The notes under the pieces were generated by a model that ran no database searches, was not told the origin of the DNA, and saw only the letters and a list, made by a program, of their open reading frames with translations. A stretch of DNA of 64,000 nt from Desulfobacterium sp. (lineage in GTDB: Bacteria > Desulfobacterota > Desulfobacteria > Desulfobacterales > Desulfobacteraceae): NCBI GenBank assembly GCA_030145245.1, contig JAQYWC010000066.1:1-64000 (forward strand), read 5' to 3'. Position numbers and translations under genes: made by a program. The number at the start of each line of letters is the position of its first letter. Position 1 is the stretch's first letter. Below are positions 29,174-45,870 of the stretch, one piece after another.

Positions 29174-29233
29174 ATACCCCGTAAAAAAAATTCATGCTCT
29201 GACTTTATTGCTCATTGCAAGCATTATTTTGCT
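29174..29233 (-). promoter_or_regulatory. AGCA triple-repeat promoter of the DUF4465 gene
   Basis: Reading the minus strand: AGCAAAATA (29233-29225), AGCAATAAA (29212-29204), AGCATGAAT (29198-29190), then GTATGAT starting at 29177. The offsets are 21, 14 and 21 bases. The third repeat covers the -35 position and TATGAT fits a -10 box. Transcription would start just before the GEMM-like aptamer. Confidence 0.7.
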
Positions 29234-29346
29234 ATGTTCTAAAACAAGTTACTTTCCAGAGTAATTGCCAAGTCCACAACGTTCAAAAACCGTATTCACT
29301 ACATGAGATTCATTCATATCCGCACAATTTCCAAAAAAACAAGAAC

Positions 29347-29410
29347 AGCAATAAAGTGCTGAAATTGAGCAATAAATTAAAAGCAAAGATGCAGAATGTA
29401 GCGTATATAT
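29347..29410 (+). promoter_or_regulatory. AGCA triple-repeat promoter of the gene at 29467
   Basis: AGCAATAAA at 29347, AGCAATAAA at 29368, AGCAAAGAT at 29382 and GTATATAT at 29403 show the same 21/14/21 spacing as three other promoters in the window. TATATA would be the -10 box, about 55 bases upstream of the ATG. Confidence 0.7.
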
Positions 29411-29466
29411 TCTACAATAAATAAACCGCATAACGAGCAAATCTAACTTTTTTAGCAAGGTGCCTT

Positions 29467-30099
29467 ATGAAAAAAAGAACAAGCATGATTGGGATCAGAT
29501 TTGTTGTTGCAACGGCTTTTATCGCAGGAACATTGGTCGCAGGCTATTACTTTATCCGGGACGACAAGCCTGCTGAACAAAATAGCATTGCTGTAAAAGC
29601 CCGGGTGCCCGAACCTGAAACCAAGCCCGCCCCCCTCCCCCCGCCAACCGTGGCCATGGAACAACCCGTGAACAAGATAAAGAGCCCCGTCCCCCAAAAG
29701 GTTGAGCCCACAGTGGAAATACCAAAGGCAGAGCCCCCTGAGGATAGTTTCCTTGATGACGATGAACTGGTGGAGATCGATGATGCCGTGAATTACGATG
29801 TTGAGGTTGAATATCAGCAAAACCAGGAATTTGAAGCCGAAGCCCTGGAGACATTCCCCGTTCATACGGTCCAAACCCATAACCCAAAGGATCCCAACGC
29901 CATTGGACCTCCAAAGGGAGAGGTGTGGATACGCATCAAACCGGAAAACGCCAGGGAGATGAATGAGATCATGGCGGAAATGGCGGATCTTTACCGGGAA
30001 ACTGCGGCAGAATACGGGGAGGAGATAACAATCATGCACTGGGTCGGAGCACAGCCCTATGCCAGGACATCATACGCTCCGGATGGTCAAATCAATTGA
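29467..30099 (+). CDS. Membrane-anchored proline-rich protein of unknown function
   Basis: This 210-residue protein is not recognised. Residues 9-29 form one membrane segment. Residues about 45-95 are rich in Pro, Glu and Lys, like a periplasmic spacer. The C-terminal 110 residues are acidic and include VWIRIKPENAREMNEIMAEMADLYRETAAEYG. No sorting motif is present. It has its own AGCA-type promoter and precedes the dockerin gene by 156 bp, so it belongs to the surface-protein group by context. The ribosome site (AAGGTG) is modest. Confidence 0.7.
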   Translation: MKKRTSMIGIRFVVATAFIAGTLVAGYYFIRDDKPAEQNSIAVKARVPEPETKPAPLPPPTVAMEQPVNKIKSPVPQKVEPTVEIPKAEPPEDSFLDDDELVEIDDAVNYDVEVEYQQNQEFEAEALETFPVHTVQTHNPKDPNAIGPPKGEVWIRIKPENAREMNEIMAEMADLYRETAAEYGEEITIMHWVGAQPYARTSYAPDGQIN

Positions 30100-30255
30100 T
30101 CAAAAGTATTCGGGTCAACCCTCCATGGTTTGACCTGCTGATAACAAACGATTCATTAGGAAGAACATAAAAAGGAGGTGAAAAAAAGATCGTCTATGGA
30201 CCCGGTTTTTGTTTTTTTTTAATTTAACCAATCAAAAAGAAGAGGTTAACAAACC

Positions 30256-31737
30256 ATGAGAAGATTACCAGGAAAAGCTCAACTTCACAAGCTCGTAGCG
30301 CTTGCCGTAGGTCTGCTCTTTATTACGACATCGGGCTGGGCAGCCAACGATTATTATCACTACGCCAAGCAGGATGCCAATGATGAGGTCACCAACAATG
30401 GTGTAGAAGCCGAGAGCTGGTGTGTTGCCATGAGCTTTCTGCCCGATACCACCAGTACAAGCTTAAGGGGCAGGTTGATTGCTGCCACGGGAACAAAGGT
30501 CTTTTTACAGGATGCTGTTGATTCAAGCTCCTGGACCCAGGTGGGATCGGTTAATGTCGCAATGGATGCAAGTTTCATTAAAGTATCGCCGGACGGCACA
30601 AAGGTCGCCCTGGGCATGGGATACGACAAGGACCTGCTGGTGTTTCCCACCACACTCCTGACCGGGGGCGGTATCACGGATCTTGACGACTCTACCAGCA
30701 CAACCACCTTTTCCACAGACGTTGTCAAATACTATGATGCAGCCTGGGCTGATGACGATCATCTGGTGATCAACGGCGGAAATTGGGACAAGGCAACCAA
30801 GATCGCATCCAATGTGGGTATCTCCTGCCTTAATATCACCAGGGCCAGGAACAAACCGGTAAATATTATTAACACGTATCCAGGAGCATCATCGGGTGTT
30901 GCCGTTGATGCGGAAAAGAACCTGATCTTTGGAAACGGGTATGACTATAATAACAACGCCACGACAGGCGAACTGGTTCTGCTGCCGTATACTGACTGGT
31001 GGGGAAACAATGCTCCCAAGACCTCGGGCCTTCCCAAGACTTACGCAACAGCCAGGAAGTTTGCCGACAATGTTCTCAGCGCAGCCCACCTTGGGTTTGA
31101 CAGCGAGAAAAACCTTCACGTGGGCGGTGGCTGGTATTGGATGCCCCCTGCGGGACAGACAAATGTAGAAAACGGCTATGCAGTATTGATCAACAAAAAA
31201 GTAATTACCGATACTGCAGCAAGTTCTACGGCAGGTGTCATTGATGAAACAGATGCAACCCAATACAGGGTATTAAGCCCTGATACCTGCAGAAACGACA
31301 CCGCAACAGGCGTCCTCAGTTACGGAAGATCCATCACGGTAAACTGGATTGACGGAGCAGGTGCCTGCACCATTGGCGGCTGTACAGACTCTTGGGGACC
31401 AGGGGTAATATCAAAGCTTACCACCTACAGGATTGACACCACCAGGGATGGCGACAGTGACGGTTTTGCAGATGTAAATGATCATTCTCCCTGGACCAAC
31501 CATGGTGATAATACAGACTATGACAGTGATGGTTATGGTAACATCATAGATGCTGATCTTAATAATGATGGTAACATTGATCTTGACGATACAGAAATTT
31601 TCGATGATGCGTATAATATATATGATCTTCAGGCCGATTTAAACGGTGACGGTAATGTTGATCTTGACGATACAGAAATTTTCGACGATTTATACTATGC
31701 TAACAAACCGTTACCATTTTACAACACAACCTTTTAA
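30256..31737 (+). CDS. Secreted protein with C-terminal dockerin-type repeats
   Basis: This 493-residue exported protein has a signal peptide ending near SGWA. Residues about 45-390 form an Asp/Gly/Thr-rich domain with short beta-propeller-like strands (KVSPDGTKVALGMGYDKDLLVF), not assigned. A calcium-binding segment DGDSDGFADVND follows. Two dockerin-like repeats follow: ADLNNDGNIDLDDTEIFDD and ADLNGDGNVDLDDTEIFDD. Each has the DxNxDGxxxxxD calcium loop, and the pair is typical of type I dockerins. The next gene encodes a cohesin-like surface protein, a candidate binding partner. Confidence 0.82.
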   Translation: MRRLPGKAQLHKLVALAVGLLFITTSGWAANDYYHYAKQDANDEVTNNGVEAESWCVAMSFLPDTTSTSLRGRLIAATGTKVFLQDAVDSSSWTQVGSVNVAMDASFIKVSPDGTKVALGMGYDKDLLVFPTTLLTGGGITDLDDSTSTTTFSTDVVKYYDAAWADDDHLVINGGNWDKATKIASNVGISCLNITRARNKPVNIINTYPGASSGVAVDAEKNLIFGNGYDYNNNATTGELVLLPYTDWWGNNAPKTSGLPKTYATARKFADNVLSAAHLGFDSEKNLHVGGGWYWMPPAGQTNVENGYAVLINKKVITDTAASSTAGVIDETDATQYRVLSPDTCRNDTATGVLSYGRSITVNWIDGAGACTIGGCTDSWGPGVISKLTTYRIDTTRDGDSDGFADVNDHSPWTNHGDNTDYDSDGYGNIIDADLNNDGNIDLDDTEIFDDAYNIYDLQADLNGDGNVDLDDTEIFDDLYYANKPLPFYNTTF

Positions 31738-31830
31738 CAAATAGGGTAATGTAATATAAAAACGATATATAGTTCCGGTTATATCAAAAGATACCTTTTC
31801 TTTTTCTTTAATCAACAAGGGGTTCATAGA

Positions 31831-32484
31831 GTGAACTTTATAAAGGGATATACAATATTAATTGCTGCAATACTTTTGTGCGTTGGAAATGCTTATGCCG
31901 CAAGTATTAATTTTGAGATCACAACTGATTATGCCGTTGGAGACGAAACTGCAACCTTTAATCTTTTTTGTACAACAGATACGGACGTACAAGTTAGAGG
32001 CTATGATTTCAGTTTTAAATATGATCAAAATGAGATAGCTTTTGAATCTCATGAAAATTTGGGGAAGTCTATTTTTCCTTCTGGGTATGAGTTCTCTACT
32101 CCAAGAGATAAGTTTTCGAATGACAACGAGAATGGCTACCTTAAGCATTTTATGGTTAAGGCAGAAAGAGGAAATTATGATTTCGAAACCCTTCAAACTG
32201 GAACAACTAAACTTGGTTCTTTCACATTTTCAATAACCGAAAATGCGATACTTGACGGTGCTGCCGATTCAGATTTCAACATGGATCTCGTCTCCTATAT
32301 GGCTCTTTATCAGAACGGATCAAAAATCAGCTCGACTAGTAGTCTCGGCCCTGCCAGTGTAGATGGAGCATTCACATTCACGACAGATGTTGGCGGGACT
32401 TCGGCGGTTCCGGTGCCTGCTGCCGCATGGCTCCTTGGCTCAGGCCTTTTGGGTCTTATTGGCATCAGAAAAAAAAGCGCCTGA
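31831..32484 (+). CDS. PEP-CTERM protein with cohesin-like domain
   Basis: This 217-residue protein starts at GTG (31831). The signal peptide ends near AYAA. The body has a cohesin-like pattern: SINFEITTDYAVGDETATFNL, then VRGYDFSFKYDQNEIAFES, and later TTKLGSFTFSITENA. The C-terminus is VPVPAAAWLLGSGLLGL with IRKK, a PEP-CTERM sorting signal. It would thus be displayed at the cell surface and could hold the dockerin protein encoded 93 bp upstream. The cohesin call is by pattern only. Base composition is more AT-rich than most neighbours. Confidence 0.65.
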   Translation: MNFIKGYTILIAAILLCVGNAYAASINFEITTDYAVGDETATFNLFCTTDTDVQVRGYDFSFKYDQNEIAFESHENLGKSIFPSGYEFSTPRDKFSNDNENGYLKHFMVKAERGNYDFETLQTGTTKLGSFTFSITENAILDGAADSDFNMDLVSYMALYQNGSKISSTSSLGPASVDGAFTFTTDVGGTSAVPVPAAAWLLGSGLLGLIGIRKKSA

Positions 32485-32594: not shown

Positions 32595-33335
32595 ATGCTC
32601 AGGGTTTCAGGATTTGTACCGGGTTTGATATTGGTGTTCCTTGTTACAGGGGCAGGAGCTGCATTTGGCGGAAAAGATACGGCCAATACGCCTGTTCTAT
32701 CAATTGAGGAAAAGGTCTTTTATGCAGGAACAGTTGTGGAAGGGGTGGAAATCAGCCACACATTCATTATAAGGAACAGCGGCATGGCCCCCCTGAAGAT
32801 CTCAAGAGTAAAGCCCGCATGCAGTTGCACGGACGTGAAATTTGATGAACTCATTCCGCCCGGGAAGAAAGGTACCCTGCATGCTACGTTCAGAACCGAA
32901 GACGAGTCCGGTGAGCAGATCAAAGGGGTAAAGATATACTCCAATGATCCGGCAAATCCGGTTGTCAAGGTTGAGATAGCGGCCCTTGTGCTGGAGGCTT
33001 TAAGCGTGAAGCCGGACCGGATATTTTTAAACGGATTGACAGGGGTTGCCCTTGAGAAAACAATCAGGATATCCGCACCTGGAAACAGGGCGTTCGACCT
33101 GAAACTTGCAGAGAACATGCTTTCGGGCCAGGTGACTTTTTCCATTGAAAAATCAAAATCTGACAATTCATACAGTATCATCTTTAAGAACAGAGCTTCA
33201 GAACCGGAAACCTTCCGGGGCAGGGTGATTTTAAAAACAAATATAAAAGAACGGCCTTTTATTACAATTCCTGTCTATTCCAGAATCAGAGAAAAACAGC
33301 AGAATGGATTTAAAAAGGCTCAATGCAAACCTTGA
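32595..33335 (+). CDS. DUF1573-type exported protein
   Basis: This 246-residue exported protein has a signal peptide ending near AAFG. Residues about 35-120 match DUF1573: FYAGTVVEGVEISHTFIIRNSG, then LKISRVKPACSCTDV and YSNDPANPVVKVEI. The domain is Ig-like (ASPM-SPD-2-Hydin type) and often extracellular. The C-terminal half is a second, less conserved beta-rich region. It lies after a strong terminator and needs its own promoter. Confidence 0.8.
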   Translation: MLRVSGFVPGLILVFLVTGAGAAFGGKDTANTPVLSIEEKVFYAGTVVEGVEISHTFIIRNSGMAPLKISRVKPACSCTDVKFDELIPPGKKGTLHATFRTEDESGEQIKGVKIYSNDPANPVVKVEIAALVLEALSVKPDRIFLNGLTGVALEKTIRISAPGNRAFDLKLAENMLSGQVTFSIEKSKSDNSYSIIFKNRASEPETFRGRVILKTNIKERPFITIPVYSRIREKQQNGFKKAQCKP

Positions 33336-33369: not shown

Positions 33370-34791
33370 TCATTCAGCTGAAAGCACCAACCGTCCCAAG
33401 GCGGGGGGAACCACGGCCGGGCATGGAGGCCCGAATTTGAAATTAAAATTGTACTCTTCACGCTCGGGGCTGCTAGTACTAAACGAGATGTTTCTTGTTG
33501 AAGTAATGACCCTGAGATAATAGGGGTCAGGCGGAGAAAACATCCCTTCTTTGCCATTTTCAAAACTGAACTTCTTGCAATAAAAGTTAACGCCTTTGAG
33601 CGGATTGTTCCCCGAAGAAAAAGCAATACTTCCGGTTGACACTACTGTCAGCTGATCCGAATCAAATCCGCCCAAAGGGATGATTCCTTTATCCGGATGA
33701 AATTCCGGAATTGTAATGTTACAGGTGGCGATAAAGGTAAGAGCTCTTATTTCATTGCTCTTTGCATCGGTCTCACCGATCTGCTTCCTGCATTCAGAGC
33801 CTGGTACATTGTAGTGGATATCCATGCCGCAGGCATGGGGCGTTAAATACACCCCTGCCTGTCCAGTAGAGCCCGTGGTATCAAAAAAGATGATTTTATC
33901 ACGGCACTCGGGGTCAGACAGGTCGAAGAAATATTCTTTATTATAACCGTAATCGATTGTCCCGTAAAAAGGTCCTGCGCCACTGTCGCCAGGCGTGTAT
34001 GTCACATCCGCCAACTCCCTCATCTTTTCCACATACTTGTCCAAGGGGAAAATATGGTTCCTTATGATATCTATCTCAGGGGGAACCAAGTTCTCTGGTC
34101 TTTCAGGTGCAGGAATACCCTGAAACGAACTAGGAAGTATATCATTTATTTCAGAATAGAATTCCAGGTTTTCACCAATGACCGGCCCGAACAAATCCAT
34201 CCAGGATTTGGAATAGATATTTCCATTATTTAAAGACAGATTACCGCCACTCGATGCACTGAAAGTGCCTCCAGACACGATGCTCACCCGGGGAACATAT
34301 GCCACGGCCTGGGCCTTGACGGTTTTATCCTTATTAAATCCCGTAAGACTTTGAACCTTGTTCTCGATGGTCACCATGACTGCGTTACTGGTTTCGTCCG
34401 TAGGATAATCTGAGTCTTCATCTTCACCCGGTTCGGCAACAAAATCCTGATAGGTCTGAAAATCCGGATGTTCATCATAGGAGTCGTAAAACCCGAACTC
34501 AACCGTTACCGCATCATCAGGCAGCATGACATTACTGCCGTATGCCACGATCTCTGCGGCTTCAACGGCTCTGCCATAGCAAAAGTTTTCAGCAGCCGAC
34601 ATGGCTGCCGCCTCTGCACATCCCTGGTAGCTGTCCTTTTCCTTGACAAAATAGCCAAGGTCCAGGGCAAATGCCAGGGCCGAGATCATCAGCACAAGGC
34701 AGAGGGCCATGACAACGGCAAAACTTCCGGTTTCCGATCTTAACAGGGTCAATGCCGGGTTTGACCGGGGATGGGTCTGTTTTATTTTCAA
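33370..34791 (-). CDS. TadG-like pilus assembly protein
   Basis: This 473-residue protein has an N-terminal membrane segment (ETGSFAVVMALCLVLMISALAFALDLGYFV) typical of TadG/TadE-type pseudopilins. A long extracellular part of unknown fold follows. It is the last gene of the Tad operon, where tadG is commonly found. The ending is at 33370, convergent with the DUF1573 gene. Confidence 0.8.
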   Translation of the reverse strand: MKIKQTHPRSNPALTLLRSETGSFAVVMALCLVLMISALAFALDLGYFVKEKDSYQGCAEAAAMSAAENFCYGRAVEAAEIVAYGSNVMLPDDAVTVEFGFYDSYDEHPDFQTYQDFVAEPGEDEDSDYPTDETSNAVMVTIENKVQSLTGFNKDKTVKAQAVAYVPRVSIVSGGTFSASSGGNLSLNNGNIYSKSWMDLFGPVIGENLEFYSEINDILPSSFQGIPAPERPENLVPPEIDIIRNHIFPLDKYVEKMRELADVTYTPGDSGAGPFYGTIDYGYNKEYFFDLSDPECRDKIIFFDTTGSTGQAGVYLTPHACGMDIHYNVPGSECRKQIGETDAKSNEIRALTFIATCNITIPEFHPDKGIIPLGGFDSDQLTVVSTGSIAFSSGNNPLKGVNFYCKKFSFENGKEGMFSPPDPYYLRVITSTRNISFSTSSPEREEYNFNFKFGPPCPAVVPPALGRLVLSAE

Positions 34792-34806
34792 TGTTCCTCC
34801 TGTCTC

Positions 34807-35754
34807 CTACTTTTTTTTCTTTCCCCCGCGGGAGCTTGTAGTCTTCATTTTCTTTTCATATTTTTTCGTGTAGATAGCGTCTGCAAGCTCTCCTGTCATG
34901 CCATCCGGGGGGGTGGGATCCAAGGGGGCCCGGGGGTTAAGGACCTGGGCAGCAAACGGTTTTTCTACCACTTTCTCCCGGATATTTTTTCTCTCCCTGG
35001 CAAGTTCGAACATTTTTTTGGCTTTTCCATGCTCGCTTCGCATTTCATAGATGCATCCCATGTTGTAGAAGGCAAGATCCGGGGTGTGATGCCTCAACAG
35101 AAGTTCCATGGCCCTGTCATCTTTTTTTTCAAGGCCAAGACAGATGGCAAGGTTGTTGACGGCGTTTTCATCTCCCGGTTCCAGGGCAAGGGATTTGTTA
35201 AAGCTCTTTTCAGCATTGGAATATTGTTTCATGTTCATCTGCTGGACGCCAAGGTTGTTGAAGAATTCGGTCCTTGCCGGATCAAGGGCCACGGCGTGTT
35301 TAAAACAATCAAGGGCCGGGTCGTTCTTTTGGGTCATTGAAAACAGGATCCCGAGGTTGTTAAATGCGGAACCATTTTTTCTGTCCAGTGAGATCGCTTT
35401 TTTAAAGTCTGCCTCAGCCTGGGTAAGGTTATCGTTCTCCCGGTGGCATACGCCCCTGAGATTGTAAATTTCAGCGCTTTTGCCGCTCTGCTCCATGGCA
35501 AGGTTGAGCTGGACCAGGGCCACATCATGGAAGCCTTTATCCATCAACTCCCCTGCCAGGGCCAGGTGGTTGGGCTTTAGATTTTCGGTATCCCAGACCT
35601 GCGGCCTTGCCATGACAGGCTCTTCCGGTTCCAGGTGCTGGAGCGGATTGTTATTATTCTTTACCGAACCGATACAACCGCTACAGATGAGCGCACACAT
35701 GAAACAGGGGATGACTGTTCTGCATGCTTTAAAAAAAAAACGTTGAATACCCAT
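34807..35754 (-). CDS. tadD: TadD-like TPR protein
   Basis: This protein of about 315 residues has an N-terminal signal segment with CALICSGC, which could be a lipobox, and several tetratricopeptide repeats. Examples are AEIYNLRGVCHRENDNLTQAEADFKKAI and GSAFNNLGILFSMTQKNDPALDCFKHAV. TadD is a TPR lipoprotein needed for Flp pilus assembly. The start at 35754 has AGGAGAAG upstream and is preferred over 35790, which lies inside tadC. Confidence 0.82.
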   Translation of the reverse strand: MGIQRFFFKACRTVIPCFMCALICSGCIGSVKNNNNPLQHLEPEEPVMARPQVWDTENLKPNHLALAGELMDKGFHDVALVQLNLAMEQSGKSAEIYNLRGVCHRENDNLTQAEADFKKAISLDRKNGSAFNNLGILFSMTQKNDPALDCFKHAVALDPARTEFFNNLGVQQMNMKQYSNAEKSFNKSLALEPGDENAVNNLAICLGLEKKDDRAMELLLRHHTPDLAFYNMGCIYEMRSEHGKAKKMFELARERKNIREKVVEKPFAAQVLNPRAPLDPTPPDGMTGELADAIYTKKYEKKMKTTSSRGGKKKK

Positions 35755-35770
35755 GGTATTGATCTTCTCC

Positions 35771-36700
35771 TTAAAATCCGTCATTGACAAGTGAGATGAA
35801 GTTGATGATTACAGGCCCAAGGATGATGAGCATCAGGGCCGGAAGTATGAAAACAACCAGGGGAAGGGTGAGCTTGGTGGCAAGCTTTGCTCCCTGCTCT
35901 TCGGCCATCTGTTGCCGCTCCCTGCGCATTGTATCGGTATGATTTTTTAACGCCTGTGCCATGTCAGTTCCAATTTTAGCCGATTGCAACAGCACGTTGA
36001 CAACGCTTTTAAGGGGCTCTGAACCGTTGCGGCGGGCAAGGTTCTCAAAGGCCGTGTTTCTTTCGATCCCGCTTTTTGTCTCAAGGAAATACCTTTCAAA
36101 CTCCTGGGAGAGTGTGGGGGCAATCTCCTTCAGCTCGTTGCACACCCGGAAAAGAGCATAGTCAAGCCCCAGTCCCGCATGGAGACAAACAGCAAGAAGA
36201 TCCAGGGTATCCGGAAGTTCCTGGAATATTTTCCCAAGCCTTGTCTTTATCCTCTGCTTCAGAACCGTGTCAGGCAGAAAATAACCAACTCCAAAAGGGA
36301 TAAAGAGCATTAAAGGGGTTTTTGAAGAGACATTTTCCGTCAGGGCAACCCCTGCAAAGGCAATGGATGCAAGCATAAGCCCAAGACCGAGTTTAAACCC
36401 GTAAAAGAGTATCACAGCGCCCTCCTCCCTGTAGCCGGCAAGGGAGAGTTGCTCAGTGATTTTCGAGAATTCCTTGCCGTTTTTCGGGGCAGCCACCCGG
36501 CCAAGGGAGAGGGCTATTTTGTTCAACCTGGGAGATGCGGCTATTTTTCCATTTTTGATTGTCAGTTGTTCAGGACTGACAAATCTCTTTCCCAGGACAA
36601 ATTTCCTATAACGCCCTTCAATATACTGACAAGCCAGGAAGGTAAATCCTGAAACCGTAAAAAAGACCATACTGTCTATTATTGTCTGCAAATTTGTCAT
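35771..36700 (-). CDS. tadC: Tad pilus inner-membrane protein TadC
   Basis: This 309-residue T2SS-F-domain protein of the Flp pilus platform has membrane segments near residues 8-25, 100-150 and 275-300. The family stretch ELPDTLDLLAVCLHAGLGLDYALFRV is present. It overlaps tadB by 4 bp, and the two form the inner-membrane platform of the pilus. Confidence 0.92.
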   Translation of the reverse strand: MTNLQTIIDSMVFFTVSGFTFLACQYIEGRYRKFVLGKRFVSPEQLTIKNGKIAASPRLNKIALSLGRVAAPKNGKEFSKITEQLSLAGYREEGAVILFYGFKLGLGLMLASIAFAGVALTENVSSKTPLMLFIPFGVGYFLPDTVLKQRIKTRLGKIFQELPDTLDLLAVCLHAGLGLDYALFRVCNELKEIAPTLSQEFERYFLETKSGIERNTAFENLARRNGSEPLKSVVNVLLQSAKIGTDMAQALKNHTDTMRRERQQMAEEQGAKLATKLTLPLVVFILPALMLIILGPVIINFISLVNDGF

Positions 36701-37659: not shown

Positions 37660-37662
37660 GGA

Positions 37663-39018
37663 TCAGGCGATCTCCCATGTTTTGTTGAACATGCCTTGAT
37701 CAAGCTCAATGCCAGAGGATAAGATGTGCTTAACGCTCTTGGGTATAACCGAGGTGGCCTTGAAACACCCAAGCACATTTCCGTCTTCATCGACCCCGCT
37801 TTGCTCAAATACAAATATCTCCTTCAGGGTTACCAGATCGTCTTCAACACCTGTTATCTCGGATATGGATACAACCCTGCGCTTACCGTCGGAGAGCCTT
37901 GAAAGCTGGACCAGGATGTCAAGGGCACTGGCAACCAGGGTTTGCAGGGCTTTTTCGGAAATGGCAACACTGGCCATGCTGGCCATCACCTCGATCCGTG
38001 AAAGGGCATCCTTGGGAGAGTTTGCATGGACAGTGGACATTGAACCGGGATGGCCCGTGTTCATAGCCTGGAGCATGTCCATCACCTCGCCCCCCCGGGT
38101 CTCCCCCACGATTATCCTGTCCGGTCGCATTCTCAGGCTGTTTTTCACAAGGTCGGTGAGGGTAACCTCGCCCTTGCCCTCAATATTGGGTGGACGTGAT
38201 TCAAGCCTTACAACATGGGGCAGGTTCAGCCGCAGCTCCGCACTGTCCTCAATGGTGATCACCCTCTCATTTTCAGGGATGTTCTCCCCAAGTACGTTGA
38301 GCAGGGTTGTCTTTCCGGCGCCTGTTCCACCGGATACAAGGATGTTGAGCTTGGATTTTATGGCAGCCTTTAAAAAATCGAACATTCCTTGTCCCATGGC
38401 ACCTTTTGCCATGAGATTTTCCCCTGTAAGCCTGTTTTTTCCAAACTTTCTGATGGACATGGTGGGGCCGTCCAGGGCAAGGGGGGGAATGATCACGTTT
38501 ACCCTGGAGCCGTCCGGGAGCCTTGCATCAACCATGGGAGAGGATTCATCCACCCTTCTGCCCATCCCGGATACGATCTTGTCAATGACATGCATGAGAT
38601 GCTTGTCATCCCTGAACTGACCCTGGGTCGGAAAGAGTACCCCATCCTTTTCCACAAGCACCTGGCCATGGCCGTTCACCAGGATATCCTGTACGGATTC
38701 GTCGTTAAGATACTCTTCCAGGGGACCAAACCCTGTTATCTCATTGATAAGGTCCGAGATGAGCATGGAACGTTCGTCCATATTAAGGGGAAGGTCTTCG
38801 TTAAGGGTTATCTCGTTGAGCATATTCCTGATGGCAACTTCAAGATCTTCAGCTGAAAGATCGGTGACGGTTGCAAGATCAAGGCGGTCAACAAGCAAAA
38901 GATGAATCTTTGACTTTACCCTGTTATACATTTCACGGTTTATGATCTTGGGAAAACTGTTTTTTGAGTCGTTTGCAAGCCCGCCCCCCCTGGAATTTAT
39001 CCGGCTGCTGAGCTTCAT
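37663..39018 (-). CDS. tadA: Tad/CpaF secretion ATPase TadA
   Basis: This 451-residue PilT/CpaF-type hexameric ATPase powers Flp pilus assembly. It has Walker A (VSGGTGAGKTTLLN), the Asp box (TIEDSAELRL), Walker B/His box (RPDRIIVGETRGGEVMDMLQAMNTGHPGS-type stretch) and the CpaF N-terminal segment GFGPLEEYLNDESVQDILVNG. It overlaps tadZ by 4 bp. Confidence 0.96.
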   Translation of the reverse strand: MKLSSRINSRGGGLANDSKNSFPKIINREMYNRVKSKIHLLLVDRLDLATVTDLSAEDLEVAIRNMLNEITLNEDLPLNMDERSMLISDLINEITGFGPLEEYLNDESVQDILVNGHGQVLVEKDGVLFPTQGQFRDDKHLMHVIDKIVSGMGRRVDESSPMVDARLPDGSRVNVIIPPLALDGPTMSIRKFGKNRLTGENLMAKGAMGQGMFDFLKAAIKSKLNILVSGGTGAGKTTLLNVLGENIPENERVITIEDSAELRLNLPHVVRLESRPPNIEGKGEVTLTDLVKNSLRMRPDRIIVGETRGGEVMDMLQAMNTGHPGSMSTVHANSPKDALSRIEVMASMASVAISEKALQTLVASALDILVQLSRLSDGKRRVVSISEITGVEDDLVTLKEIFVFEQSGVDEDGNVLGCFKATSVIPKSVKHILSSGIELDQGMFNKTWEIA

Positions 39019-40181
39019 CCTAGCAAGCCTCCTGAAAGGATTTTTTTCCAGTCCTTTTCTTCATGGGGTTTGATCCCGGTCAGGTTTCCTGCAATCGCCT
39101 TCATATCATTGTTGATTTTACCCTTTTTATCCGTCTGGTTCAGGGTTTCCCCCTGGTTTGAAGCCATGGAAAAAAGGGGATAATTGTTCTCTATGGTAGC
39201 AAATATTTTCTGCTGGAAAATTTTTTCAAGGTCAACATCATCCATATCGTTTTTTTTCAGATACCGGTTAATGATCACCTGGAGCTTCTTTTGCTCAAAA
39301 TTGAGTTCCCTGAAGAATTCTATCACCTTCAGGGCACTCTTTACCGTGGGAATATTCTGCTGGGTCATTACAAGCACCCTGTCTGCCTGGGTGCAGACCT
39401 CCAGGGTGCGGTCTGAAAAATCATGGGGGCAGTCGATGACGATATAGTCAAAATGCTGCTTTAACAAGGAGAGCATACCCATGATGTCATTGGCTGTTAT
39501 CCGGTCTGAATCACTTATCTCTTCCGGGGTCGTCAGGATATAAAAACCGTTTGGATGTTGAAAAAGAGAGGAAAAAAGAAGATTTTCATCCATTCTCTCC
39601 ATATCCTTTATAAGGTCATAGGGCGTATAGGAGATCTCGATGTTGAGGTAGCTGCTTATATCCCCCATGAACAGGTTCAGATCCAGGAGAAGCACCCGGT
39701 CCTGTGTGAGATCATGGATATGATCCGCAAGATTGATGGCCGTGGTGGTAACCCCGATTCCTCCCTTGAGGCTGAATACCGGGAAAATGTCAGCACCCTT
39801 GGAGAGACCGCCGGATCCGTCCAGTGCTCTTCTTACGGACCCTGCAAGTTCGGCCTTGTCAAAGGGATATGTCAGGAAATCGGTGATTCCCATCCTGAAG
39901 CCCCGGAGAAGGAGGTCAGGATCTTTTCTTGAATTTATCATGAACAGACCGGTTTGGGGCTGGATCTTTTTGATGCGTTTTGCAAGATTCATGAGATCAC
40001 TTTCCTGCATGGTGACATCGAGAAAAACAAGATCTGTCTTTTTCTCCCTTATGGTCGCGTACCCCTTGGAGATGTCGGAGATGCTGTCGGTAATATCGAC
40101 AATGGGCATGAGTTCACCGGCAAGTTCCCGGTGGAGTTTCCTGTTTTCACTGATTAGAATACCGCTTGATTTTTCCTTCAT
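39015..40181 (-). CDS. tadZ: TadZ/CpaE-like localisation ATPase
   Basis: This protein of about 388 residues has an N-terminal receiver-like domain (residues 1-120, with LVFLDVTMQE and LTYPFDKAEL). A MinD/ParA-type ATPase follows, with deviant Walker A FSLKGGIGVTTTAINLA and switch motifs LLLDLNLFMGD and YIVIDCPHD. TadZ proteins place the Tad apparatus at a cell pole. The start at 40181 follows AGGGTAT; the frame opens at 40214. Confidence 0.9.
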   Translation of the reverse strand: MKEKSSGILISENRKLHRELAGELMPIVDITDSISDISKGYATIREKKTDLVFLDVTMQESDLMNLAKRIKKIQPQTGLFMINSRKDPDLLLRGFRMGITDFLTYPFDKAELAGSVRRALDGSGGLSKGADIFPVFSLKGGIGVTTTAINLADHIHDLTQDRVLLLDLNLFMGDISSYLNIEISYTPYDLIKDMERMDENLLFSSLFQHPNGFYILTTPEEISDSDRITANDIMGMLSLLKQHFDYIVIDCPHDFSDRTLEVCTQADRVLVMTQQNIPTVKSALKVIEFFRELNFEQKKLQVIINRYLKKNDMDDVDLEKIFQQKIFATIENNYPLFSMASNQGETLNQTDKKGKINNDMKAIAGNLTGIKPHEEKDWKKILSGGLLG

Positions 40182-40217
40182 ATACCCTGTTTCCCTTAAA
40201 AGCGTTTCAATCAAATC

Positions 40218-41741
40218 CTATTTTGAAAAACCGTTTTGCCCCTTAAAGACAGGAACGCTTTTTTCTGTTTTTTTGGTCAGATCAAGATTGTTGTTTATGA
40301 AAAAATCGAAATCGCTGATCATATTTTTAAGGTCCTGGCCGGGCAGTATCGGCACCTCTCCCTTGTTCAACGGCCGTACGATCTGGGGGGTCACAATGAT
40401 AACCAATTCGGTTTCCTGGTGTTGAGTCTCCTTGCTTGTGAAGAATGAACCAAGGTAGGGAATATCCCCGACAAAGGGAAGTTTGTTTGTTGAGACAAAA
40501 CTTTCCTCCTTTAAAAGACCTGCCAGGGCAAATGTCTGTCCGTTTTTCATCTGAATGGTTGTTGAAACCTTTCTCTCGGTCAGCCCGGGAACGGTTACAC
40601 CGGCGGCTGTGACGCCAAGGGAGTAATCAGGGGCACTCACCTCAGGGGTCACCTCAAGTGTAATGGTCTCCTGATCAGTGATATAGGGAGTAAAATTGAG
40701 CTTTATGCCGTAGGAGTTGTACTCAATAGTAATTCCGCCTTCGTCGGTCTGAACCGGGATGGGGTAGGAACCTCCGACCTGGAAGCTTGCTTTTTGACCG
40801 TTCATTGTGACCAAGGTGGGCGATGCAAGGGATTTTGCAAGTTTCTGCCCTTTAAGCAGGCTTATTATACCAAGCCAGTCGTGCTTTGTGGAATTAAGGG
40901 CTATCTGAAATGCAGTGCCAAAGGGAGAGTTAAAGCTGCTGGAGGATCTCTGGGAAGAACGGGTGCTGTTTATAGGCATTCCGCCTGAAATAGTTTGTTC
41001 AAAACTATTACCGAATTCTCCGCCGATTGTTGTCTTTGTTGTTATACTCGGGGATGTATAATCCGTCGAGCTTGAGGAGGTGCTGTTTCCGGTGTAGTCT
41101 CCCCCCTTAAAGATCCCGATTCCCAGGTTTTCCTTGCTGTTCAGGAAATTGATCCCCATCTGTTTCAATCCGGACTTTGAAATTTCAGCGATCACAACCT
41201 TGAGCTGCACCTGCTGGGGGCCTGTAAGATTTATCAGGTTGAAGAATTTAATATCAAAGCTTTTTACCACGGTAAGGACTTTTTCAAGAATCGCCTGGCT
41301 TGTTACCTCGCCTTTGAGGATGATCGACCGTTTCCCGCTGGATTGCCGGACCGGCAGAATTTCGATCTCAACCTCCGGTGCAATCTCTTTTACCCTTGCT
41401 TCCATGAGTTCCAGGATGGACGGGGGCATGGGAGAATACACCTCTATATGAAACGTCTCCGCCATATTTTCATCCTTCCACAGGATCAGGGTGGTGGAGG
41501 CGGACTTCTTTGACTTGGAGACAATAAGCATCTGGGTGGGCGTTACCACACTTACATCGGCAATATTGCTATCAGCTACGGCGGCCCGGATAATGGGATA
41601 CCGGGTTTTCATGAGATAGGAGTGATGGAGCTGAATCCTGATGGGTTCCCCCTTTTCAGTTCCATCCGCCATGGCGTTATCCGGCAGGAAGATGAAAATC
41701 AGGATCAATGGGACAAAAATATTTTTTATCAGGTTCTTCAA
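40218..41741 (-). CDS. rcpA: RcpA/CpaC outer-membrane secretin of the Tad system
   Basis: This 507-residue secretin has a signal peptide (ending near NAMA), a pilus-secretin N-domain, a BON-like segment, and the C-terminal secretin domain with VGGSYPIPV, SYGIKLNFTPYI and KLPFVGDIPYLGSFF. It forms the outer-membrane channel. The start codon is TTG, preceded by AAGGAG. Confidence 0.93.
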   Translation of the reverse strand: MKNLIKNIFVPLILIFIFLPDNAMADGTEKGEPIRIQLHHSYLMKTRYPIIRAAVADSNIADVSVVTPTQMLIVSKSKKSASTTLILWKDENMAETFHIEVYSPMPPSILELMEARVKEIAPEVEIEILPVRQSSGKRSIILKGEVTSQAILEKVLTVVKSFDIKFFNLINLTGPQQVQLKVVIAEISKSGLKQMGINFLNSKENLGIGIFKGGDYTGNSTSSSSTDYTSPSITTKTTIGGEFGNSFEQTISGGMPINSTRSSQRSSSSFNSPFGTAFQIALNSTKHDWLGIISLLKGQKLAKSLASPTLVTMNGQKASFQVGGSYPIPVQTDEGGITIEYNSYGIKLNFTPYITDQETITLEVTPEVSAPDYSLGVTAAGVTVPGLTERKVSTTIQMKNGQTFALAGLLKEESFVSTNKLPFVGDIPYLGSFFTSKETQHQETELVIIVTPQIVRPLNKGEVPILPGQDLKNMISDFDFFINNNLDLTKKTEKSVPVFKGQNGFSK

Positions 41742-41776
41742 TACAAATCTCCTTATGGAATCACATGCGCTCTTTT

Positions 41777-42880
41777 TTAATCAACATAGAATTTTATCGG
41801 GTGGGTTGTAGAACCTTTCAGTACTTCAATGATCCTGAATGCTCTTTTGTCTTTTAAAAACAGGTCACTCAAGAGTTCTCCCCGGGTTGTGATCCGCTCC
41901 CTGTCCTTGGGATTTCTTGTTACGATCCTGAGATCTCCATTTGTTGAAGAGTCCGCGATTACAGCCAGTTTTTCCGCCTGGGTCGGCGTTACGACCAGGG
42001 TAACGCAAGTGGCGGCTTTATTCTTATCAAAGACGTTTTTAAGAAGCTGCTCCGTTGTCAGGACCTCAACATCCTGGAGCAGGATTTTCGAGGATTTCCT
42101 GACATTAAAGATCTCTCCCTTTGTTCCCACAGCCTGGTTGCCTCCTTCAGTAGAGAAAACCGAGGCCTTGCTCGAAAAGATCACATCCACCCGGTCCCCG
42201 GGCTTCAGGGTTCCGCAAACCCCGTCGGTGTTGTCTATCTGAAGTGTTATGGCCCGCATTCCGGATTTGATGAGAGTTGCGGGATTGGATGCAGACCGGT
42301 TAACGGTGACAACCCCGGTATCGCTTGCATATATGGTGGGCATGGTTTCAAGGATTTCATTGTCATTGGCGTTTCTCAAAAGAAGCCGCAGCTTGGTGGC
42401 CTCGCTGATTGAAGCAATGACCGCACCCTGTTCCGGCGTAACCAGCAGATGAATGGTCCATGTTTTCTTTTTCCTGGCGGCCTTATCTGTAAGTTTTTTC
42501 TTAACGGAGGTCTCCTCCAGGGTATATATTTTTATATTCTGGAGCACGATACGGGAGATCTTGCCATTGGATACCCCTTTGTAAGGTGTAACAGCCAGGA
42601 TATCCACCCGGTCGTCCTTTTCAAGCTCCCGGGTCACCCCTGAGATCTCATTCACCCCGATGGTGACAATCCTCATGCCTTTGGGAATGGCCCGGGAAAA
42701 CGCCCTCCCCTTATCAACAGGCTGTTCCGGTATTTTCTTTTCCGGTTTTTGAACAGGAACGGCCTGAATGACGGGAGCAGCCTGAACAGGCTCTCTCTTC
42801 AGCATGGAGACCCCTTTTACGGCCAGAAGCCCCATGAAAACTGAAATAAGCAGTGCAATAACGGTTTTTGCTTTAAACAT
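41777..42880 (-). CDS. rcpC: RcpC/CpaB-like Tad protein
   Basis: This 367-residue periplasmic, membrane-anchored protein has two SAF-like halves. The first has AFSRAIPKGMRIVTIGVNEISGV and DDRVDILAV; the second has KSGMRAITLQIDNTDGVCGTLKPGDRVDVIF. Family members support secretin function. It lies 36 bp upstream of rcpA in transcript order. Confidence 0.92.
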   Translation of the reverse strand: MFKAKTVIALLISVFMGLLAVKGVSMLKREPVQAAPVIQAVPVQKPEKKIPEQPVDKGRAFSRAIPKGMRIVTIGVNEISGVTRELEKDDRVDILAVTPYKGVSNGKISRIVLQNIKIYTLEETSVKKKLTDKAARKKKTWTIHLLVTPEQGAVIASISEATKLRLLLRNANDNEILETMPTIYASDTGVVTVNRSASNPATLIKSGMRAITLQIDNTDGVCGTLKPGDRVDVIFSSKASVFSTEGGNQAVGTKGEIFNVRKSSKILLQDVEVLTTEQLLKNVFDKNKAATCVTLVVTPTQAEKLAVIADSSTNGDLRIVTRNPKDRERITTRGELLSDLFLKDKRAFRIIEVLKGSTTHPIKFYVD

Positions 42881-42952
42881 AGATTATCGTCTCTCCATCA
42901 ATTGGATTCTCCAGGCAGTTATTCCTTAAAACAGGGGACAGGCTCAACATGG

Positions 42953-43411
42953 TCAGGGGAATGCCATCAGTGATACAGCGCTTATGGTGCGGGGAATCAT
43001 GCCCTCGGGCAGATAACCGGTCAAAGGAGTGTACTCATAGTCAACCACCCTGACCTCCAGGTATTTGCAGGATTCATAATCGTCCAGGGAACTATTCCCA
43101 GCGCCCTTGAAACTAACCTCAACCCCGCTACCATCCAGGGAATCATCGAGCCAGAAGCCTTGGTTTACTGCATTGATCGCAATCTGTTCAGGATCCTCGT
43201 ACTCCTCATCATCGGAATCCAGCCAGTACTTAACCTTTACCCCTGCCCTGGCACCTGAGGAAACGGCATTCTCCATGATCATCACATTGGTCAGGTACCA
43301 GGAGTAATCCAGGAGTCCGAAGAAGATCATGAACCAGATGGGCAGGAGAATCGCAAATTCCACTGCGGCCGTACCCCTGTTGTTGAGAAATCGTGCTTTG
43401 AAAATTTTCAA
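42953..43411 (-). CDS. tadE: TadE-like pseudopilin
   Basis: This 152-residue protein has the TadE N-terminal segment NRGTAAVEFAILLPIWFMIFFGLLDY, with the prepilin-type cleavage region just before it. The remainder is a short periplasmic domain. The start codon is TTG and overlaps the tadV stop by 4 bp. Confidence 0.88.
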   Translation of the reverse strand: MKIFKARFLNNRGTAAVEFAILLPIWFMIFFGLLDYSWYLTNVMIMENAVSSGARAGVKVKYWLDSDDEEYEDPEQIAINAVNQGFWLDDSLDGSGVEVSFKGAGNSSLDDYESCKYLEVRVVDYEYTPLTGYLPEGMIPRTISAVSLMAFP

Positions 43412-43926
43412 ACCGCTCCCCCCGCAATGAGATAGGCAATATATCCTGTAAGAATCGGAACCGAATAGGGAATACTCTCCCTCTTCCCAGCTGCCAAAAC
43501 GGGCGACAGGTTGAAAATCAGCACTTTCAGATCTTCAACAATACCGGTCAAGGAGCTTAACCTCTTTTTTTTCAACAACAGGAAAAGCGAAACAACTCCC
43601 CCGGCCATGGCACCGTAGAGAAATATCCAGGAAACGGCAAGGGGGCCGACAAGGGAACCGATCGCTCCCAAAAGCTTCACATCGCCACCTCCTGCCCCGC
43701 CCAGGAGAAACGGGACAATAAAGACCAACAGCCCTGCTGCCAACCCTTTCAAAGCCCAAAAGACGCCCGGCCCCATTCCCAGTTGAACTGCATTCAGCCA
43801 GATTCCAAGAACGACAAAGGGCATGGTGAGCCAGTTGGGAATCTTTCTCCACAACAGATCGGTACAGACCGCAATGCAAATCAGCACCATGGTCCCGGAA
43901 AAAGGAGTCTGTATCCAGCTTATCAC
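43408..43926 (-). CDS. tadV: TadV/CpaA-type prepilin peptidase
   Basis: This 172-residue A24-family aspartyl peptidase processes Flp pilin. Both catalytic aspartates are visible, in CTDLLWRKIPNW and in GGGDVKLLGA (GxGD motif). Several membrane segments span the protein. The start is GTG with GGAGAAA upstream. No separate GspO-type peptidase is in the window, so processing of the T2SS pseudopilins must rely on this or a distant enzyme. Confidence 0.93.
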   Translation of the reverse strand: MISWIQTPFSGTMVLICIAVCTDLLWRKIPNWLTMPFVVLGIWLNAVQLGMGPGVFWALKGLAAGLLVFIVPFLLGGAGGGDVKLLGAIGSLVGPLAVSWIFLYGAMAGGVVSLFLLLKKKRLSSLTGIVEDLKVLIFNLSPVLAAGKRESIPYSVPILTGYIAYLIAGGAV

Positions 43927-43938
43927 GACTTTCTCCTG

Positions 43939-44142
43939 CTACTCGGTGACAGTGGGGTTTTTAATTTTCTCTGTTGTCGTTTCAAGCTGGTCTGAGATGG
44001 CATCAAAAAGAAGGCCCAGCTTTTCGCTGAAACCGCCTAGTACAGTTACGAGAAGTGCCGCCATGATCCCTGCAATCAAACCGTACTCAATGGCTGTTGC
44101 ACCAGATTCATCTTTCCATAGTTTTTTTAACAATCGTTTCAT
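43939..44142 (-). CDS. flp: Flp-type pilin
   Basis: This 67-residue pilin is the major subunit of the Tad pilus. The leader ends at Gly14 (DESG/ATAIEYG), and the mature part begins with the Glu-Tyr pair diagnostic of Flp pilins, followed by one hydrophobic helix. The start at 44142 has AGGTGA upstream; an upstream in-frame ATG at 44208 has none. It is the first gene of the operon, about 80 bases after the AGCA-type promoter. Confidence 0.95.
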   Translation of the reverse strand: MKRLLKKLWKDESGATAIEYGLIAGIMAALLVTVLGGFSEKLGLLFDAISDQLETTTEKIKNPTVTE

Positions 44143-44223
44143 AGTTTCACCTGACCTTAAGTTGTGGCAAGGATTCCATGTAGGAATCCCTGCCCTGTTC
44201 TCATTCATCGTTATCCGATAGTA

Positions 44224-44287
44224 AGTAATACCCGATCAATCGATTCAATGCTTGGATTTTATTGCTAAAGAACAGCACTATTTTGCT
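44224..44287 (-). promoter_or_regulatory. AGCA triple-repeat promoter of the Tad pilus operon
   Basis: Minus strand: AGCAAAATA (44287-44279), AGCAATAAA (44266-44258), AGCATTGAA (44252-44244), GTATTACT from 44231. Spacing is 21/14/21, as in three other promoters of the window. It lies between the regulator gene and flp. Confidence 0.72.
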
Positions 44288-44329
44288 ATTAACTAAAGAC
44301 CACTGATTTATTCAGTGCCGGACCGGGCT

Positions 44330-45229
44330 CTATCTTAGAACAAGGCTCTTTTGCCCGGCCTGGCCGCAGCCGTCAATTTTCCAGTGAAGGCTGTTGAGCC
44401 AAAGATCCGGAGTCCCCTCCACATCAACGGTAACGGATTGTTTTTTCGCTAAAAGAGATTTCCGGTACAATGAGGGACTTGTGCCCTGGATCTTCTTAAA
44501 CACACGTGCAAAATAGGAGACATCGTTAAACCCCACGGCATAGCAGATCTGGGAAACGTTCATACCCTGATTTCCCATCATCCGTTTGGCCTCCTTGATC
44601 CGTGTGCGATTAAGATATTCCTTGAACGAGCAACCGAGAGTATGTTTAAAGAGACGGGAGTAATGGTACCGGCTCAATCCATTAATGGCCGAGACATCAT
44701 CCAGGGTGATGGAGCCCATATATTGGGTTTCAATGTGCTCCAGGGATCGCTGGAGTTTTTTACGGCCCTTTGGCACGATCGGTTCCCCACCGGACATTGG
44801 GGCGGAACGGGTCTGAAAATACAGGCTGCCAAGCCGGCTTAAGGCGGCGTTTTCGAAAAAGACGCTGATCTCGGGATAGGTGTTGAGCATCTCGACAAAA
44901 TCCACCGTTTCAATGGTGTAGCAGGTCGTGGGCCGGGTTGCCACAAGATCAATGATGGAGAGCCCCTTGTCCACAAGGGCCATAAGGCCGTAATACTCGC
45001 CCACGGTTAAAGAACCGTTGGAACGGATCCCCCCCTCTTTAGAACAGCGCTCAATTGCGAGGTTGCCGGAAACCACATACCCGATCTGGGCCACTGCCTG
45101 GTTTTCCTGTAAGAGGAGGGTATCTTGGGAAAAAGTGCGCAACTGGAACAAGGATTCTATCTTGTCCCTTTTCGCGGGTTCAAGGGTGCTGAAAGGGGGA
45201 ATATACTGCAGCAGGTCACAGGTTTTCAT
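44330..45229 (-). CDS. CRP/AraC hybrid transcription regulator
   Basis: This regulator of about 299 residues has an N-terminal cyclic-nucleotide-binding-like domain (about 15-130; LLQENQAVAQIGYVVSGNLAIERCS, LTVGEYYGLMALV). Its C-terminal part is an AraC-type double helix-turn-helix (about 185-285; ITLDDVSAINGLSRYHYSRLFK, VSQICYAVGFNDVSYFARVFKK). The ATG at 45229 has GGAG upstream, directly after the terminator of a cobalamin riboswitch. It lies between the Tad and T2SS promoters, both of which carry AGCA direct repeats with a 21-bp period. It is therefore a candidate regulator of those operons. Confidence 0.9.
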   Translation of the reverse strand: MKTCDLLQYIPPFSTLEPAKRDKIESLFQLRTFSQDTLLLQENQAVAQIGYVVSGNLAIERCSKEGGIRSNGSLTVGEYYGLMALVDKGLSIIDLVATRPTTCYTIETVDFVEMLNTYPEISVFFENAALSRLGSLYFQTRSAPMSGGEPIVPKGRKKLQRSLEHIETQYMGSITLDDVSAINGLSRYHYSRLFKHTLGCSFKEYLNRTRIKEAKRMMGNQGMNVSQICYAVGFNDVSYFARVFKKIQGTSPSLYRKSLLAKKQSVTVDVEGTPDLWLNSLHWKIDGCGQAGQKSLVLR

Positions 45230-45240
45230 TCTCAAGCTCC

Positions 45241-45278
45241 AAAAAACAAAAATCCCGGCAACAGTATTGCCGGGATTT
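45241..45278 (-). terminator. Riboswitch-linked terminator before the CRP/AraC gene
   Basis: On the minus strand AAATCCCGGCAA pairs with TTGCCGGGATTT (12 bp, 5-base loop) and runs into ATTTTTGTTTTTT. It ends immediately before the GGAG ribosome site of the regulator gene and follows the cobalamin aptamer, so it is the likely expression platform. Confidence 0.88.
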
Positions 45279-45334
45279 ACGTTTTTAAATCCACTTAAGG
45301 TGTCGACGTCCTTTGTCCGTAAGGATAGTCAATT

Positions 45335-45495
45335 CATGCAGGTCGGTCTTCTGACTCACGGATCATTTTACTTGTCGCGCCTTCCCGTTTTAAAAAAAAC
45401 AGTGACATAAATGCGACGTTCATCCCCGTTCACAGCGGCGGGCCCGTCATCGGTTTTCACGATGTTCCCATGCTCTATAAAATGAGCACCTGCAT
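45335..45495 (-). promoter_or_regulatory. Cobalamin (B12) riboswitch aptamer
   Basis: The minus strand carries the conserved cobalamin aptamer elements in order: GCAGGTGCTC, then ATGGGAACATCGTGAAAACC, GACGGGCCCGCCGCTGT, GTCACTG, GGGAAGGCG, and GAGTCAGAAGACCGACCTGC. This is the full set, including the B12 box and the 5' GGTGC element. The aptamer is followed by a strong terminator and a CRP/AraC-type regulator, so adenosyl- or methylcobalamin is expected to reduce regulator expression. Family match is by known consensus. Confidence 0.92.
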
Positions 45496-45564
45496 TCCAT
45501 AATTTTTTATGAAACCATCGGTTTGGTTAAGATGTATGAAACAACCCCAAACGACATGGGGTGG

Positions 45565-45592
45565 TTCTAAAAACAATCACAAAAAAAGTCAA
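45565..45592 (-). promoter_or_regulatory. Candidate promoter of the riboswitch-regulator transcript
   Basis: On the minus strand TTGACT (45592-45587) and TTAGAA (45570-45565) are separated by 16 bases, a fair sigma-70-type pair. It lies about 70 bases upstream of the aptamer. Confidence 0.4.
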
Positions 45593-45763
45593 GCAATAAA
45601 ATCGACATCACATTTTAAATAAAAACCTGCCGCAAGACCACTGTGCGCAAATCAAAACCAACGTCATCCCACCATCAAAAAAAACAGGGTTCATTCACAA
45701 TTTCCCTTGTGTTTTCCCACAAAACAGCTATCAATAACAGGGAAAGCATTAAATCATGATCCA

Positions 45764-45783
45764 TTGACGACATTTGACGACAT
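45764..45783 (+). repeat. Tandem 10-bp direct repeat TTGACGACAT
   Basis: Two perfect adjacent copies of TTGACGACAT lie about 60 bp upstream of the T2SS promoter repeats. A period of one helical turn is compatible with a protein-binding site. No binding protein is known. Confidence 0.6.
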
Positions 45784-45805
45784 TGCCGAAAAAAGGAGCT
45801 AAAAC

Positions 45806-45870
45806 CGCTAAAAAATCCTATTATTCGGCAATAAATCAATAGCAAAGATATGAAATTTATCGTATAAAAA
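45806..45870 (+). promoter_or_regulatory. AGCA triple-repeat promoter of the T2SS operon
   Basis: A degenerate first repeat CGCTAAAAA at 45806 is followed by GGCAATAAA at 45827, AGCAAAGAT at 45841 and GTATAAAA at 45862. Offsets are 21, 14 and 21, identical to the other three sites. TATAAA would be the -10 box, about 45 bases before the gspG start. Confidence 0.68.

Follow-up and report, generated by a model that had tools for sequence, protein, structure and literature searches.

Four AraC-type promoter sites of a sulfate reducer's pilus and secretion island and their proposed control by a regulator under a cobalamin riboswitch

Which regulator might four promoters of the same build, spread over one gene island of a Desulfobacterium sp. 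genome, share? The promoters lie in a 64,000-nucleotide stretch (positions 1 to 64,000 of contig JAQYWC010000066.1, assembly GCA_030145245.1; hereafter the window, whose numbering we use throughout), where they face genes for a Tad pilus, a type II secretion system, and surface proteins. The original prediction had read them as one activator-dependent promoter family with three AGCA-type repeats each. We found that the four sites, named A to D, are real, and the reading that suits them best is that of AraC-type operators which quite probably serve one local activator, encoded at 44330-45235 (minus strand) and itself under a cobalamin riboswitch. Genomes carry our labels: G000 is that of the window (6,418,480 bp, or 6.42 Mb), G001 and G002 (the latter in two contigs) are of the same genus, and the wider samples comprised 335 genomes of the order and 394 of the phylum.

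Upon re-reading the sequence, the coordinates, strands, and offsets proposed for all four sites were borne out. Counted from the first AGCA at offset 0, sites A to D carry AGCA-type boxes at 21 and 35 and GTAT at 56, so that the start of GTAT lies 21 bases beyond that of the third AGCA in every case. Site A (29171-29233, minus) has half-sites at 29233-29220 and 29212-29199, the AGCA of its -35 region at 29198, a -10 element at 29176-29171, and a predicted start at 29164; site B (29347-29409, plus) has half-sites at 29347-29360 and 29368-29381, a -10 at 29404-29409, and a predicted start near 29416. Site C (44225-44287, minus) has half-sites at 44287-44274 and 44266-44253, a -10 at 44230-44225, and a predicted start near 44218, and site D (45806-45868, plus) has a degenerate half-site at 45806-45819, a second at 45827-45840, a -10 at 45863-45868, and a predicted start near 45875. 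Sites B, C, and D have counterparts in G001, and site D has a partial one in G002. As the original prediction held, each site points at a gene start, namely those of a DUF4465 gene (28998 or 28944, minus), a membrane-anchored protein (29467, plus), the pilin gene flp (44142, minus), and gspG (45916, plus), for which the four sites would be operator and promoter. The first repeat at 45806 is degenerate as described, reading CGCTAAAAA; the repeat layout stands with the small correction that the second repeat at 45827 reads GGCAATAAA, and the consensus AGCAWNGAW given for the third repeat of all four sites fails at site A, which has AGCATGAAT. Upstream of site D, positions 45764-45783 hold a perfect tandem repeat, TTGACGACAT twice, in a stretch that is shorter in G001.

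The pattern is rare in the genome. The core GCAATAAA-N6-GCA-N18-TAT gave 4 exact matches in the whole genome, all in the window, and its backwards form gave 0. The longer form GCAATAAA-N6-GCANNGA-N13-GTAT matched 3 times at 0 mismatches, once at 1, not at all at 2, and 12 times at 3, while its backwards control yielded 4 matches in total at up to 3 mismatches. Since these patterns were built from the four sites themselves, the weight rests on the lack of close matches elsewhere and on the relatives. A PEP-CTERM-wide regulon was rejected for this genome, given zero pattern matches outside the window at up to 2 mismatches. A looser pattern, with 1 mismatch, matched 89 of 98 genomes and was too loose for use.

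The geometry of the sites points to a known type of promoter. AraC proteins bind direct half-sites, and sites A to D have two of them at a spacing of 21 bp, with the -10 at +57, as expected of an araBAD-type promoter; each takes the form AGCAAWAAnTSC, most plainly in the first half-site. In Escherichia coli araBAD, whose promoter we located between araC and araB, AGC stands at 0 and 21, CTGACG at 33, and the -10 TACTGT at 57, a layout that the four sites share; these elements are the half-sites I1 and I2, each with an A-box and a B-box, and the -10. The likeness extends to an AGC A-box and a TCC-like B-box. The placing of the third AGCA over the -35 region agrees with CTGACG at +33. As a third regulator-binding repeat, however, it was rejected: the operator consists of two half-sites, and we do not count the third AGCA as another because only AG at +35/36 recurs outside the genus (11 of 14 sites), where its repeat character is lost. 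Of the predicted promoter family, the three repeats thus fall, and dependence on an activator is well supported at the sequence level by the geometry, by a regulator gene lying between two of the sites, and by the motif at homologous promoters next to homologues of the regulator in other genera and orders.

That gene, between sites C and D, encodes a protein with a CRP-like domain and an AraC-type double helix-turn-helix (HTH), and it is the likely regulator of the four sites, with a putative role in binding and activating them. Its C-terminal part has the double HTH of the AraC/XylS family (HTH_18, 3.8e-23, above the cut-off; PDB 2k9s, AraC, 9.7e-10), and its N-terminal part matches the cNMP-binding fold (cNMP_binding, 2.2e-9; PDB Crp family, 4.4e-4). 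An AraC ligand-binding N-terminal domain, which is not required family-wide, was not found in the regulator, its N-terminus matching cNMP_binding; nor did the regulator give a Pfam match to the CRP-type winged HTH at 1e-3, the AraC HTH standing in its place. Cyclic AMP is an unlikely ligand, given that the Glu and Arg of CRP that contact it are missing in 11 of the 11 full-length regulators aligned to CRP (four have Asp at the Glu position). The regulator resembles E. coli AraC in its DNA-binding domain, whereas AraC has an arabinose domain in place of the CRP-like sensor domain; its output would moreover be set by a riboswitch, and its regulon is a different one. It is 78% identical in G001, and 16 of the 335 genomes of the order match it at 1e-18. 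In G054 (L097:9385-11852), it is split into N- and C-terminal pieces ~1.5 kb apart, with a cobalamin riboswitch still upstream.

The leader of the regulator gene holds a cobalamin riboswitch (RF00174; 45324-45508, minus) that scores 104.9 bits against a gathering cut-off of 31.5 and covers the whole model (positions 1-189), followed by a strong terminator hairpin with a T-run (45242-45286, minus) directly before the start codon. From this arrangement, we infer an OFF switch that acts via the terminator, with adenosylcobalamin as the predicted ligand. The leader in G001 is very similar. Among the 16 matched genomes of the order, 15 have a same-strand cobalamin riboswitch upstream of the regulator; its distance to the start of the match is 88-186 bp in 14 of them and 732 bp in G107. 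In three of these 15 (G107, G134, and G322), the DNA-binding domain alone is in frame, and the HTH-only match in G005 has no cobalamin riboswitch upstream. In the phylum sample, five genomes of other orders match the regulator at 1e-25, and all five carry the riboswitch upstream on the same strand, that of G660 being weak (37.7 bits) and 477 bp away. By contrast, no Rfam match of any kind turned up at 20 control AraC-type loci, taken from 25 retrieved as additional matches and with at most 1.5 kb of flank apiece. The window's own genome has 15 cobalamin riboswitches, and among these loci only that of the window has the operator. Together with 15 c-di-GMP-I (cyclic di-GMP) riboswitches, this makes a large riboswitch repertoire. 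Elsewhere, the regulator contig of G322 has corrin-synthesis genes behind another cobalamin riboswitch, and in G034 (L110:4380-4590) one also precedes the tad genes themselves.

The operators recur in relatives. In G001, they precede gspG, flp, and the anchored-protein gene; a fourth site is followed by a c-di-GMP-type riboswitch and an open reading frame close to where the contig ends. A fifth site, which scores lower (26.6), stands before another riboswitch of this type and a PEP-CTERM gene. We then ran a matrix of the half-sites alone, made from 8 sites of G000 and G001, on 397,571 bp of sequence around the regulator in 13 other genomes (G174 was excluded as a near-duplicate of G179). This gave 24 matches over a score of 12 versus 5 in reversed sequence, whose maximum was 14.9, and 15 lay above that maximum. 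The 14 matches at 17 or more, from 8 of the 13 genomes, have TA at +57 in 13 cases and AG at +35 in 11, although neither column was in the matrix. The spacing of half-site pairs peaks at 21 bp (12 of 36 pairs versus 0 of 9 in reversed sequence). An operator lies just past the regulator gene, on its strand, in nine genomes: the window's, G001, G134, G213, G570, G591, G536, G595, and G660. In the other orders, each of the five genomes had a best full-matrix match above its reversed control, and this match preceded tad genes in one and a cobalamin riboswitch in four; with half-sites only, the control was beaten in four and tied in G595. Best matches and reversed controls were 35.6 and 15.1 in G570, 16.7 and -6.2 in G595, 15.0 and -5.5 in G660, and 10.8 and -11.6 in G591, three of these matches preceding a cobalamin riboswitch and a DUF4465 gene and one tad genes. 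A further, weak operator-like site in G001 (C31; L098:7597, plus) scores 31.7, its look-alike in G000 (C39) scoring 5.4; it was excluded from the counts.

In Desulfobacca acetoxidans (G536), riboswitches at 900580-907086 match the seven-riboswitch region described in PMC9481103, and a similar island adjoins that cluster, with a gene order nearly as in the window. It comprises a DUF4465-like gene (weak, 25% identity) and dockerin-like, PEP-CTERM, anchored-protein, DUF1573, and Tad genes, together with the regulator under its own cobalamin riboswitch and type II secretion genes that follow a second such riboswitch. It departs from the window in where the anchored protein lies, in which strand carries the DUF4465-like gene, and in the internal order of the type II secretion genes. 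Operators precede two of the three adenosylcobalamin/c-di-GMP riboswitch pairs (32.4 and 25.2; control maximum -6.1), the first pair lying outside the fetched stretch, and a weaker operator-like site (8.6) stands before the tad genes.

Downstream of site A, a second signal may come into play. The DUF4465 gene (28162-28998, minus; PF14717, 5.3e-43; PDB 9hmu, 2.8e-28) encodes a protein with a tail that looks PEP-CTERM-like by eye, and it is preceded by a c-di-GMP-I riboswitch (RF01051; 29085-29164, minus; 59.4 bits against a cut-off of 35) and a terminator-like hairpin with a T-run (29067-29101, minus), which together take up part of the ~166-220 nucleotides from the predicted start to the gene. 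Because the 5' arm of this terminator is shared with the 3' end of the aptamer, the riboswitch is predicted, and the overlap suggests it, to be an ON switch. Its first base (29164) is the start expected for site A, 7 bases after the -10 (offset 69), a start that was placed after the riboswitch had been seen. Seven c-di-GMP-type aptamers, one in the window and six in G001 and G156, begin 65-72 bp past offset 0 of an operator, where +69 is expected; two of the operators before these G001 and G156 aptamers are weak (13.3 and 17.6). The DUF4465 family binds vitamin B12, binding having been shown for eight members distant from the one in the window (PMC13398666). The window protein is a probable B12-binding surface protein, a putative role that follows from family membership. 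A DUF4465 gene is present in 32 of the 335 genomes of the order, five of them regulator-bearing; for comparison, we took 28 loci from the 27 genomes without the regulator. A same-strand cobalamin riboswitch lies upstream at 18 of these loci, and at 27 we found no operator. The exception, G222, has a stack of operator, c-di-GMP riboswitch, cobalamin riboswitch, and DUF4465 gene. In G107 (L122), group II intron matches and repeated copies of open reading frames are scattered through the DUF4465/PEP-CTERM region, whose DUF4465 frame is short.

We therefore favor, with good though not full confidence, a model in which sites A to D are the operators of the one local activator, and which may be described as a B12-starvation regulon. 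Two regulator subunits would occupy the two direct half-sites, 21 bp apart, beside a weak -35 region, and bring in RNA polymerase in the manner of AraC at araBAD. When B12, as adenosylcobalamin, is scarce, transcription would read through the leader, the activator would be made, and the Tad pilus, the type II secretion system, and the surface proteins, the DUF4465 protein among them, would be switched on. The c-di-GMP riboswitch on the DUF4465 transcript would add a second condition, for a logic of NOT-B12 AND c-di-GMP.

Several observations weigh against this model. A simple scan found the terminator in only 7 of 15 leaders. No half-site match at 17 or more was found in 5 of the 13 genomes, namely G166 (a 4.4-kb contig), G107 and G005 (HTH-only matches), G097, and G034. 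The cobalamin aptamer of G570, G595, and G660 begins 46-55 bp past offset 0, ahead of the transcription start expected at +69, and the c-di-GMP aptamer of G222 begins 99 bp from the operator. The full DUF4465 gene of G001 (L151) has neither operator nor riboswitch that we could find, and in the order only 5 of the 16 regulator-bearing genomes have a DUF4465 match, none being found in 11. Finally, G222 has an operator (31.4) and no regulator at 1e-18, and G002 keeps the gspG site, its first half-site apparently disrupted, with no regulator match at 1e-3. The fetched stretch of G002 has its type II secretion genes adjoining the genes that border the far side of the island in the window, the Tad and PEP genes being missing.

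What such a regulon would be for is a separate question. Tad pili are adhesins, and the regulon may respond to B12 as a metabolic cue only, with the island serving adhesion, biofilm formation, or electron transfer, a reading that is compatible with the proposed regulation and that we regard as a serious possibility, if short of probable. The sparse occurrence of DUF4465 among regulator-bearing genomes of the order speaks for it, as do the possible connection of conductive pili with coenzyme B12 that PMC9481103 suggests and the cohesin/dockerin adhesins that PMC10553843 reports from syntrophic sulfate reducers. On the other side stand the B12 binding of DUF4465 proteins already cited, the cobalamin riboswitches at 18 of the 28 DUF4465 loci, and a clear DUF4465 gene (2.1e-39 to 2.9e-63) at three of the five regulator loci of other orders. 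A further reading, which we put forward only tentatively, is a dedicated extracellular machine for cobamide capture: B12 shortage would induce the activator, the Tad pilus and type II secretion system would display B12-binding proteins bearing DUF4465 or dockerin domains, c-di-GMP would act as a second gate, and control would have moved from riboswitches on single genes, as in relatives and D. acetoxidans, to a single riboswitch on one activator in charge of several operons. Because DUF4465 was not found in those 11 regulator-bearing genomes of the order, the regulatory claim is stronger than that of B12 capture.

Two further explanations concern the sites themselves. They might be bound by a different regulator, be it some other AraC protein or a global factor, with the CRP-AraC gene a mere neighbor; the operators of G002 and G222 speak for this, as do the 19 AraC-domain matches of the genome, the regulator's own and one at 62523 in the window included. 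This seems unlikely to us in view of the absence of the operator from 27 of the 28 DUF4465 loci in genomes without the regulator, its place directly past the regulator gene in nine genomes, and its restriction to one of the 15 cobalamin-riboswitch loci of the window's genome. That the sites are instead a core-promoter class, read by a special sigma factor or as an extended promoter with no activator, is very improbable: the gspG promoters of G000, G001, and G002 do resemble one another closely between the third box and GTAT, but conservation reaches the two half-sites upstream of the core, other genera keep these half-sites and lose most of box 3 and the spacer, and the pattern does not occur in the rest of the genome at up to two mismatches.

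Several other genes make up the island. The protein facing site B (29467-30099, plus) appears by eye to be membrane-anchored and has a conserved C-terminal region and no Pfam match. Next to it lies the gene of a protein that looks secreted by eye (30256-31737, plus), with C-terminal dockerin-like repeats; Dockerin_1 matched in five of eight members of its family and not in the window's own, and a profile search returned mainly dockerin and thrombospondin-type chains that match these repeats. Its N-terminal part is at most a candidate for a BtuG-like beta-propeller: propeller-repeat matches were weak and confined to single family members (0.017 and 0.048), and the single-sequence model had a mean predicted local distance difference test score of 34. 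The protein at 31831-32484 (plus) has a PEP-CTERM tail at 0.0072, under the Pfam cut-off (8.4e-5 for the best of the family), and its cohesin identity was dropped as a likeness by eye that the searches did not support. A DUF1573 gene (32595-33335, plus) is followed by the Tad genes tadG, TPR, tadC, tadB, tadA, tadZ, rcpA, cpaB, tadE, and tadV (33370-43926, minus; named from Pfam matches), by flp (43939-44142, minus; 67 aa, the first gene after site C, named from its sequence), and, past the regulator, by gspG to gspE of type II secretion (45916-56365, plus). The regulator, Tad, DUF1573, PEP-CTERM, dockerin-like, and anchored-protein genes occur together, wholly or in part, in G156, G054, G097, G220, G229, and others. 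At 60244-63990, the window holds an unrelated-looking group of an enolase-superfamily enzyme, DUF1611, an AraC regulator, and a LysE exporter.

Known systems resemble this arrangement in part. In Listeria, the AraC-family regulator PocR is also under a B12 riboswitch, which there lies on an antisense RNA and here in the regulator's own leader. The B12-scavenging loci of Bacteroides (BtuG, BtuH, and BtuJ1/J2, BtuJ being DUF4465) likewise pair a DUF4465 surface protein with B12-riboswitch regulation (PMC13398666); there, lipoproteins lie beside btuB/btuCD, whereas here PEP-CTERM-like tails lie beside Tad and type II secretion genes, and Pfam scans of 40 window proteins (18456-63990, the first 18 kb being outside the scan) named no btu genes. 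The tandem gates of D. acetoxidans share both signals and the predicted logic NOT adenosylcobalamin AND c-di-GMP; according to the account in PMC9481103, they act in cis on one RNA, whereas in the window the B12 signal would act in trans via the activator. That account of the gates, in the text available, names no regulator or operator, and its main text contains neither PEP-CTERM nor DUF. Our searches of the literature that joins PEP-CTERM, Tad pili, and AraC, or a cobalamin riboswitch and PEP-CTERM, or a cobalamin riboswitch, pili, and AraC listed no report of this regulon.

If the model is true, sulfate reducers would set their pilus, secretion system, and surface proteins by vitamin B12 status. 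The seven-riboswitch cluster of D. acetoxidans gains context, as it adjoins a similar island with a regulator under a B12 riboswitch and operator-like sites. Overall, the comparison suggests that the same B12/c-di-GMP logic may exist in two designs, one working in cis and the other in trans.

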